47,621 bases of DNA from a virus. This document shows, in pieces, positions 5,358-43,846 of this stretch. Position 1 is the first letter of the stretch, and every line of letters starts with the position of its first letter. A model generated the notes under the pieces. It did not search any database. It had not been told where the DNA came from and saw only the letters and a program-made list of their open reading frames with translations. The position numbers were made by a program, and so were the translations under genes. The DNA is taken from positions 1 through 47,621 of IMG/VR virus record IMGVR_UViG_3300023238_000251. One strand, given 5' to 3'.

Positions 5358-5375
5358 CTAATGGAGAACTTCATA

Positions 5376-42048: not shown

Positions 42049-42076
42049 TTGACAAACATAATATTGATGCTATAAT
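42049..42076 (+). promoter_or_regulatory. sigma70-type promoter for primase, predicted leaderless
   Basis: TTGACA (42049-42054), 16-nt spacer, TATAAT (42071-42076), then AGTAGT and the ATG at 42083. Nearly identical downstream context to the gp41 promoter (TATAAT-AGTAAT-ATGAGTA). Confidence 0.82.
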
Positions 42077-42082
42077 AGTAGT

Positions 42083-42178
42083 ATGAGTATTGTATCCGAC
42101 ACAGTAACAGCACACTTGCCTTCAAAGCGTAAGACTACTCCTAGTGGGTGGCAAATCTTCAGATTAAATTTGTTTTAA
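42083..42178 (+). pseudogene. gp61: 5' fragment of primase gp61, cut off by endonuclease gene
   Basis: 31 codons: MSIVSDTVTAHLPSKRKT, then TPSGW followed by QIFRLNLF and a stop. This is the normal start of cyanophage-type gp61 (M-x-I-V ... L-P-x-K-R-x-x-T-x-S-G-W). The frame leaves the primase after W, just where the endonuclease gene begins. The same KTTPSGW recurs at the start of the downstream primase ORF with synonymous third-base changes, so this piece is probably a leftover, though it still owns the promoter and a good start. Confidence 0.75.
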
Positions 42179-42188
42179 CTGCGGACTG

Positions 42189-42196
42189 TATAAATA
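42189..42196 (+). promoter_or_regulatory. Late promoter, predicted leaderless
   Basis: TATAAATA, exact consensus, then TTGCT, then the ATG at 42202 of the GIY-YIG gene. It is carried by the mobile gene itself. Confidence 0.8.
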
Positions 42197-42201
42197 TTGC
42201 T

Positions 42202-42867
42202 ATGATAATATATAAAATTACAGCGCCAAACAGTAAGCAATACATTGGTCAAACTATTTCAACCCTTGACGAAAAAATACAGTGGTACAAAAAGTCTGCT
42301 AATAATGATAAAACTAACAGATATATTTTTAATTCTATACGCAAGTACGGTATAGAGAATATGAAATTTGAAGTAGTTGAAGAGAGTAGCACTTGGTCTA
42401 AAAAAGAACTTGATGATAAAGAAATTTACTATATTAATAAGCTCGAGACATATTACACGTTAGGAAAAGGATATAATATGACTTATGGCGGCGACGGGTT
42501 AGACTCCGAATCGGCTAGTCGTGTTATAACAAAATGGTATCAAACTATGACCGAAGAAAAGAAACAGCAAAAATCTCACAATAGTTCTGTTGCTCAGAAG
42601 AAAAGATACAACACTAATCCTGACAGTGACGAAACGCGAGAAAAAAAGAAAAAGTCTCATCAAGGTACTTATGTTATAGAATCCCCAGAAGGAGGCGTCT
42701 ATTATGCAGACAATGGATTAAAAGAGTTCTCGGAACAAAACAAAGAAGAACTTGGCGTAACTTATTGGCAACTTTTTAATGCGTACAGAAAATTATACCA
42801 AGACACTATAACTATTAGAGAACAAAAAAACTTAAACAAGTGGAAAGTTACTCGTGTTGACAAATAG
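42202..42867 (+). CDS. GIY-YIG homing endonuclease inside the primase gene
   Basis: 221 aa from ATG 42202. MIIYKITAPNSKQYIGQTI is the GIY-YIG start; SIRKYGIENMKFEVVEE, and LDDKEIYYINKLETYY with the catalytic Glu, then GYNMTYGGDG complete the domain. The C-terminal half has a basic KKQQKSHNSSVAQKKR and a DNA-binding-like helix (GLKEFSEQNKEELGVTYWQLFNAYRK). Has its own late promoter with leaderless geometry. It overlaps the downstream primase ORF by 14 nt. A longer GTG start at 42148 would precede the predicted transcript start and is rejected. Confidence 0.92.
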   Translation: MIIYKITAPNSKQYIGQTISTLDEKIQWYKKSANNDKTNRYIFNSIRKYGIENMKFEVVEESSTWSKKELDDKEIYYINKLETYYTLGKGYNMTYGGDGLDSESASRVITKWYQTMTEEKKQQKSHNSSVAQKKRYNTNPDSDETREKKKKSHQGTYVIESPEGGVYYADNGLKEFSEQNKEELGVTYWQLFNAYRKLYQDTITIREQKNLNKWKVTRVDK

Positions 42868-43846
42868 CATCTGCGAAATAATATTGTCTTATTGGCAATT
42901 AGGAAGAAAAACAAAAACTACTCCAAGTGGATGGATCTCCGGAAATGCGCCGTGTTGCCATCACAACGGCAACACTGCTGACACAAGAGGTAGAGGCGGC
43001 ATGATTGTCAGCGGCAACCACATAAGTTATTCCTGCTTTAACTGTGGATATAAAGCTAGTTGGCAACCAGGTAGAGCGGTGTCTGTGAAGCTACGTAAGC
43101 TTCTACAGTGGCTGGGTTGCACTGATGATAGCATAACTAAGCTCACGTTCGATGTAATGCGTATAAACGAAGGTGTGCAAGTAGCAGAGCGTAAGATAGA
43201 AATACCTACGTTTGAAACTGTTCCTCTTCCACCTGATGCAGTTAAGATTACAGACATTACAGAGTTTAATAAGTTTAGCATGGCTATACTTGAATACATA
43301 GCAACTCGTAACTTGGACTTGGATGATACAGAATACTACTGGTGTCCAAGTCTTGCATACAGGGATAGACTTATTATTCCTTTTTACTTTGAACAGCGTA
43401 TTATAGGATGGACTGGTAGAACTATTACAGCAGACAAGAAGCCTAAGTACATGAACGAACAGCAACCAGGATTTGTATACGGACTAGACAAACAAACGTA
43501 TGATAAAGAGTTTGCTATACTTGTTGAAGGTCCAATGGATGCTATTCACATAGACGGATGTGCGCTGGGCGGTAGTGAGATTAATGATGCACAAGCATTA
43601 CTGCTTAACAGACTAGGCAAAGAGATTGTAGTTGTACCTGACAGAGATCACGCAGGCAAGAAACTTGTAGAAGATGCCATTAGTAGAGGCTGGGGAGTTA
43701 GCTTACCTGAATGGGACCAAGAGATTAATGATGTAGGCGATTGCGTAGATAAGTATGGTAGACTATATACTTTATACAGTATTGCTAGTGCTGCTGAAAC
43801 TAGCCCACTTAAAATTAGACTGAGAGCAAAAAAATGGTTCGTATAA
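42854..43846 (+). CDS. gp61: DNA primase gp61 with replaced N-terminus
   Basis: Makes RNA primers with the gp41 helicase. 330 aa (T4: 342). The zinc-binding region is NAPCCHHNG ... YSCFNCGYKASW, with GRGG between. TOPRIM-like catalytic core: AILVEGPMDAIHIDG (the Glu) and VVPDRDHAGKKLVEDA (D-x-D). LDDTEYYWCPSLAYRDRLIIPFYF is a typical lead-in. The first 26 residues (GTG start, LTNSICEIILSYWQLGRK ...) do not match gp61 until KTTPSGW, so the natural start has been replaced after the endonuclease insertion. No clear ribosome binding site for GTG 42854; coupling to the overlapping endonuclease gene is likely. Confidence 0.92.
   Translation: MLTNSICEIILSYWQLGRKTKTTPSGWISGNAPCCHHNGNTADTRGRGGMIVSGNHISYSCFNCGYKASWQPGRAVSVKLRKLLQWLGCTDDSITKLTFDVMRINEGVQVAERKIEIPTFETVPLPPDAVKITDITEFNKFSMAILEYIATRNLDLDDTEYYWCPSLAYRDRLIIPFYFEQRIIGWTGRTITADKKPKYMNEQQPGFVYGLDKQTYDKEFAILVEGPMDAIHIDGCALGGSEINDAQALLLNRLGKEIVVVPDRDHAGKKLVEDAISRGWGVSLPEWDQEINDVGDCVDKYGRLYTLYSIASAAETSPLKIRLRAKKWFV

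Follow-up and report, generated by a model that had tools for sequence, protein, structure and literature searches.

We identified what is very probably a mobile homing element in the primase gene of a virus, composed of a gene for a GIY-YIG endonuclease and, behind it, a foreign version of roughly the first 59 codons of the gene it targets, a natural arrangement that resembles a 'home-and-rescue' drive. The window, by which we mean the whole stretch of DNA analysed, is an IMG/VR virus record 47,621 bases long, and at 42083-43846 it holds a confirmed arrangement in which the native primase start is stranded and is followed by an endonuclease gene and then by a complete primase. An assembly artefact is ruled out, because the arrangement is matched on four other IMG/VR contigs (L001-L004) and around 50 distinct related primase genes are without the insertion. 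The features of the locus are as follows:

42049..42076, + strand: sigma-70-type promoter TTGACA-N16-TATAAT of the native primase, 12/12 consensus matches, 6 nt 5' of the ATG at 42083
42083..42151, + strand: stranded native primase codons 1-23 (MSIVSDTVTAHLPSKRKTTPSGW), 96% nucleotide identity to the native starts of L038 and L010
42083-42178, + strand: 31-aa ORF, MSIVSDTVTAHLPSKRKTTPSGW followed by QIFRLNLF and a stop (TAA at 42176-42178)
42131..42151, + strand: KTTPSGW, native copy, by sequence match
42149..43049, + strand: mobile block common to the window and the diverged phage L035: 901 bp with 3 mismatches, between flanks that are ~60-70% identical
42171..42184, + strand: remnant of the native zinc-finger codons CFNCG, the left insertion edge, out of frame with the stranded ORF
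42189..42196, + strand: TATAAATA, a late-promoter-like box (putative function), exactly 5 nt 5' of the endonuclease ATG
42202..42867, + strand: GIY-YIG homing endonuclease gene, 221 aa, by PHROG, I-TevI profile and Foldseek
42857..43843, + strand: restarted primase, stop at 43844-43846, with DnaG-type primase/Toprim Pfam matches
42857..43033, + strand: carried foreign primase codons 1-59, 54% nucleotide identity to L007 against 90% downstream
42914..42934, + strand: KTTPSGW, carried copy, by sequence match
43034..43047, + strand: CFNCG codons of the working primase, the right edge of the element, from the block end and the breakpoint scan

The preliminary description had placed a 31-aa ORF, an endonuclease ORF and a primase restart here and had reported that the native 5' end keeps its promoter; the ORF coordinates (42083-42178, 42202-42867 and 42854/42857) agree with it, and the promoter before ATG 42083 is a perfect one. 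Both candidates for the restart, GTG 42854 and TTG 42857, lie within the end of the endonuclease gene; TTG 42857 is probably the start, because TTG occupies the equivalent place in most family members, and GTG 42854 is possible. The spacing from TATAAATA to the endonuclease ATG is kept across the endonuclease family, but the count of this motif in the window was not above chance, and an enriched late promoter was therefore rejected even though the spacing recurs. Six window genes (at 5361, 11584, 19299, 25880, 41263 and 42202) have an ATAAATA box ending 3-5 nt 5' of the start codon and are without a clear Shine-Dalgarno sequence; the box lies 19-38 nt upstream in other window genes, several of them with a Shine-Dalgarno sequence. 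This spacing suggests leaderless late messages in the window, and the native primase message may be leaderless too (42049-42083 and related loci), since only 6 nt separate its sigma-70-type promoter from the ATG.

The window endonuclease (P0002) has the GIY-YIG catalytic fold. It matches PHROG homing-endonuclease families at 4e-20, the profile of its ten-member family matches the I-TevI catalytic domain at 1.3e-7, and the best PDB match in Foldseek of its AlphaFold2 model (mean pLDDT 76) is I-TevI (TMt 0.71, E 6e-3); queried alone P0002 gave no Pfam match, and its relatives reach PF01541 at 1.5e-7. The catalytic Tyr, Glu and Asn (Y14, E74 and N92) are invariant in the family alignment, and the position of I-TevI R27 is without Arg in the family and adjoins an invariant K25; activity is likely, not certain, because the catalytic Arg is replaced by this nearby Lys. 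The C-terminal domain is the putative targeting part. The endonuclease stands directly 5' of the primase gene at 22 of the 24 loci found with the family alignment (14 lineages), the two exceptions matching in the catalytic domain only, and the C-terminal domain lies directly before primase in 14/14 lineages found. In L157 (358-1059) the same C-terminal domain is fused to another type of GIY-YIG catalytic domain, again 5' of primase, which we read as domain shuffling with the target gene kept, and in L159 and L160 the C-terminal domain alone remains.

Intact primase genes in relatives, which the preliminary description had anticipated, are abundant: 54 distinct native IMG/VR sequences carry the uninterrupted site in the form MSIVSDIIIAHLPGKRKTTPSGWTSFNAPCC. 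The occupied site was found in a second genomic background, L035, in which positions 42149-43049 are identical to the window save at 42794, 43014 and 43039; outside this block the downstream primase shares 71% protein identity with that of the window and the flanking DNA ~60-70%. The common block comprises the endonuclease gene and the first 59 primase codons, in agreement with the earlier proposal that a recoded version of the severed segment moves along with the endonuclease. The element is present or absent at one site and has moved between diverged genomes, and comparison of these genomes shows the endonuclease and the foreign primase start to move as one block.

Sequence identity changes sharply along the primase gene. 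The carried segment shares 54% nucleotide identity with L007, against 90% for the remainder of the gene, and its 59 codons share 55% amino acid identity with the natives, whilst the stranded 69 nt share 96% identity with L038 and L010. Breakpoint scans of the window against L005 and L007 place the switch between SYS and CFNCG (z 11.4-11.9; maximum of 500 shuffles 4.3), and with L010 as the reference the best single breakpoint lies further upstream, 5' of KTTPSGW. These comparisons show the carried start to be foreign and the stranded start native. The primase of L130 has the same N-terminus type and no endonuclease, and the carried segment is therefore a natural divergent allele.

The insertion point can be read from a short zinc-finger motif. 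The CFNCG codons, TGTTTTAACTGCGG, stand just 5' of the endonuclease ATG and have 2 matches in the window against 0.01 expected. A CFNC remnant stands at the left edge in 9 lineages; it precedes the endonuclease in the window, L035, L088, L148, L149, L150, L152 and L155, and in L127 it reads CFSC (one change). Native stranded starts 5' of the remnant are of varied lengths or absent, L149 for example retaining NAPCCHHRGHKPDTRSRGH followed by CFNC. A comparison of L088 with L116 again puts the right breakpoint at CFNC. Judged by these alignments the insertion point is CFNC and not KTTPSGW, which was rejected as the site once the CFNC remnant had been found. With CFNC at both edges, the original order was therefore native primase from codon 1 to CFNC, then the endonuclease, then a foreign stretch that again runs from codon 1 to CFNC, and finally the remainder of the primase. 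The stranded native copy in the window has by this reading later lost its middle, which is why it appears to end at KTTPSGW, and the exact left recombination point is unreadable because the left edge is eroded.

The preliminary description had centred on two 21-bp copies encoding KTTPSGW that differ by synonymous changes (AAG/AAA, CCT/CCA, GGG/GGA). Both copies and all three differences were found at 42131-42151 and 42914-42934, but the duplication is far longer than 21 bp, since a foreign version of all the first 59 codons is carried. Nor do the synonymous changes stand up as the key feature: the K and G codons are freely variable across the 54 natives, and the sole notable codon of the three is that for P, which is CCT in 48/54 natives and never in carried copies, so that the changes are mostly ordinary variation as far as the alignments tell. 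The idea that the carried copy is a synonymous recoding of the local sequence gives way to that of a foreign allele, at 55% amino acid identity. An excess of synonymous change in the carried segment was likewise rejected: its synonymous divergence from the natives (0.54-0.77) is not above the level between distant phages, distant natives being ~0.5-0.6 apart, and special selection for recoding is therefore unneeded. The carried copy is recoded because it is foreign, with a presumed protective effect, and any immunity may follow from its foreign origin without having been selected for.

Occupied loci also decay. The stranded start is mutated to KTTQGGW in L035 and contains stop codons in L088. 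The catalytic half of the first endonuclease has been lost via a 7-bp repeat in L036 and L090, and only scraps of a second, unrelated endonuclease are left in L017, L020, L021, L110 and L120, which retain the restart. The foreign primase start is still there in every derivative that has lost the endonuclease and whose contig extends that far (L090 ends earlier). In-frame deletion derivatives were rejected as proof of translational coupling, as 3/4 are in frame, too few for significance.

From block mobility, the foreign and native origins of the two starts, the insertion edges, independent recurrence and decay, all of which can be read in the compared sequences, we infer the following cycle. 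In a mixed infection, the endonuclease would cut the primase gene of a phage that lacks the element, at CFNC or close to it, around codon 57-60. Repair from the carrier would then insert the endonuclease and the foreign start as one block, block insertion being apparent from the comparison, with a right join at CFNC to the recipient's own primase, as the comparison also indicates. An unbroken primase would be restored by reinitiation at the TTG overlapping the end of the endonuclease gene, and the foreign start would be too divergent to be cut. The compared loci show the final steps: the recipient's own start, stranded upstream, erodes, and the endonuclease is later lost whilst the foreign start stays.

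The primase gene has been entered by a second GIY-YIG family, unrelated to that of the window (L116, L119 and L166-L170). A GIY-YIG-like gene follows MSAVADTTLTYLPAKRKTTPSG in L116 and L117 and is followed by a primase restart, MSIVSDVSIAYYTQGSKVKTTPSGWMSRNAPCC; this endonuclease is 65% identical to that of L119 and its predicted model is I-TevI-like. L166, L167 and L170 hold relatives of this family, also 5' of primase. When L110 and L017 were compared with the native L026, the foreign part ended between WMSR and NAPCC (z 6.7 and 5.8, against null maxima of 5.2 and 5.6), which places the insertion site of the second family near codon 23-28 and sets its foreign cargo at 28 codons. The comparisons show each of the two families to carry just the primase part that it severs. 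A stretch of L017 (3236-3400) differs from L026 by synonymous changes in all of thirteen consecutive codons (NGNTADTRGRGGL), with identical codons either side, and is possibly the trace of another recoding event.

We consider it unlikely that the locus reflects an ordinary free-standing endonuclease, homing without an intron next to a divergent allele that it does not cut, with the swapped start being flanking co-conversion and not part of the element. The seg and mob genes of T4 behave in this manner (PMC2988022), L130 has the same N-terminus type without the endonuclease, and L127 and L155 are without a stranded start beyond the CFNC trace. However, co-conversion should give tracts with varied ends, yet the breakpoints fall at CFNC, as does the left edge, and for each of two unrelated endonucleases the cargo is limited to what lies upstream of the site where that endonuclease inserted. 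A group I intron or other RNA splicing, by which the stranded start would be an exon joined to the downstream primase, is very improbable, even though endonuclease genes are frequent in phage introns and KTTPSGW occurs in both pieces. The preliminary description had favoured an arrangement without an intron or intein, and this holds: no conserved RNA core of a group I intron was found, with no Rfam intron match at E<5, and the insert is nearly filled by coding sequence, only ~110 nt of it being neither endonuclease nor carried primase. Moreover the restart lies partly within the endonuclease gene, no N-terminal part is missing from the downstream ORF, and the stranded pieces have acquired stop codons in L088 and disappeared in L155. 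A primase split into two polypeptides, as for Aeh1 NrdA and phage 25 gp43, would be a known result of endonuclease insertion (PMC2988022). It is just as improbable here, as the downstream ORF has the whole zinc-binding and Toprim regions and the 23 codons upstream add nothing to it and are decaying. Programmed bypassing by the ribosome, with take-off at GGG-TGG (42151) and landing at GGA-TGG (42934), has T4 gene 60 as a precedent and matching codons at the two points, but next to no chance of being correct, since the gap of ~780 nt contains a gene and the take-off region is degraded in L035 and absent in L155.

Returning to a homing element that carries its own replacement start, we hold it somewhat probable that it represents a distinct class of phage element: an inserter into an essential gene whose integral, target-immune cargo is the exact severed 5' segment, with at least two origins (at the CFNC and SGW/NAPCC sites) and copies of target codons at its borders; its foreign 5' ends would stay for good, and stranded relic starts would be left behind, once the endonuclease has died. 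The closest natural parallel is provided by the fungal mitochondrial mORFs of Allomyces atp6 and Glomus atp6, atp9, cox2 and nad3 (PMC3630166), in which an endonuclease ORF likewise sits in an essential gene alongside a foreign version of the severed end that is synonymous in part, the native end being stranded. The mORFs, however, carry the 3' end, with the endonuclease downstream of it (PMC3630166), whereas the phage element carries the 5' end, with its own start codon, downstream of the endonuclease, a mirrored order, and it resides in phages rather than mitochondria, with two GIY-YIG families striking one gene at two sites. The element shares with T4 Seg/Mob intronless homing a non-intron GIY-YIG endonuclease beside its target and a carrier allele that is presumably uncut, but the T4 genes are intergenic and often far from the cut (PMC2988022), whilst this one has entered the target gene itself, brings the severed part with it and strands the native start. 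In nrdA of Aeh1, split by mobE, and gene 43 of phage 25, split by seg43 (PMC2988022), an endonuclease also lies within an essential phage replication gene, but there the gene pieces cooperate, whereas at the present locus nothing is missing from the downstream piece and the upstream one is a useless leftover. The engineered HomeR (PMC7968924) similarly combines a cutter with a re-coded severed end of an essential gene and uses the native promoter; it is Cas9-based and re-codes the 3' end, in contrast to the natural phage element and its 5' end. A phage case of a carried 5' end was not found in the open-access literature, keywords returned no such arrangement from a 2023 survey of phage endonuclease genes (PMC10448857), and searches found no cultured phage with a full-length relative of either family before primase.

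Other loci were considered as similar cases. In the Bacteroides phage crAss001 the GIY-YIG gene gp18 (L244:2007-2579) overlaps the start of the large terminase gene; it was rejected, as was SKML-39 gp014, because an upstream stranded start (of the terminase in crAss001) was not seen. A possible third case, in another gene, lies in L088 (698-1180), where VSIDIDFGDK and a homing endonuclease remnant (phrog_314, 1.3e-7) are followed by MDIDIDFADRDEIL, a restart of the neighbouring DIDIDFADR gene. Elsewhere in L088 (5279-5944) the replicative helicase gene breaks at NIFAGGCVVAETEV, which resembles an intein start, and an endonuclease-like ORF follows.

The usual view is that a homing endonuclease can spare its host gene only by residing in an intron, an intein or an intergenic position. 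The phage element would be a different solution, in which the severed gene end is carried in a form that the enzyme probably does not cut. As empty, occupied, eroded and endonuclease-less states coexist among related contigs, the question of its origin and decay is directly testable. The element accounts for short relic starts and foreign primase 5' ends which annotation would call spurious ORFs, and if it is indeed a distinct class, a home-and-rescue drive would also be reshaping an essential replication gene.
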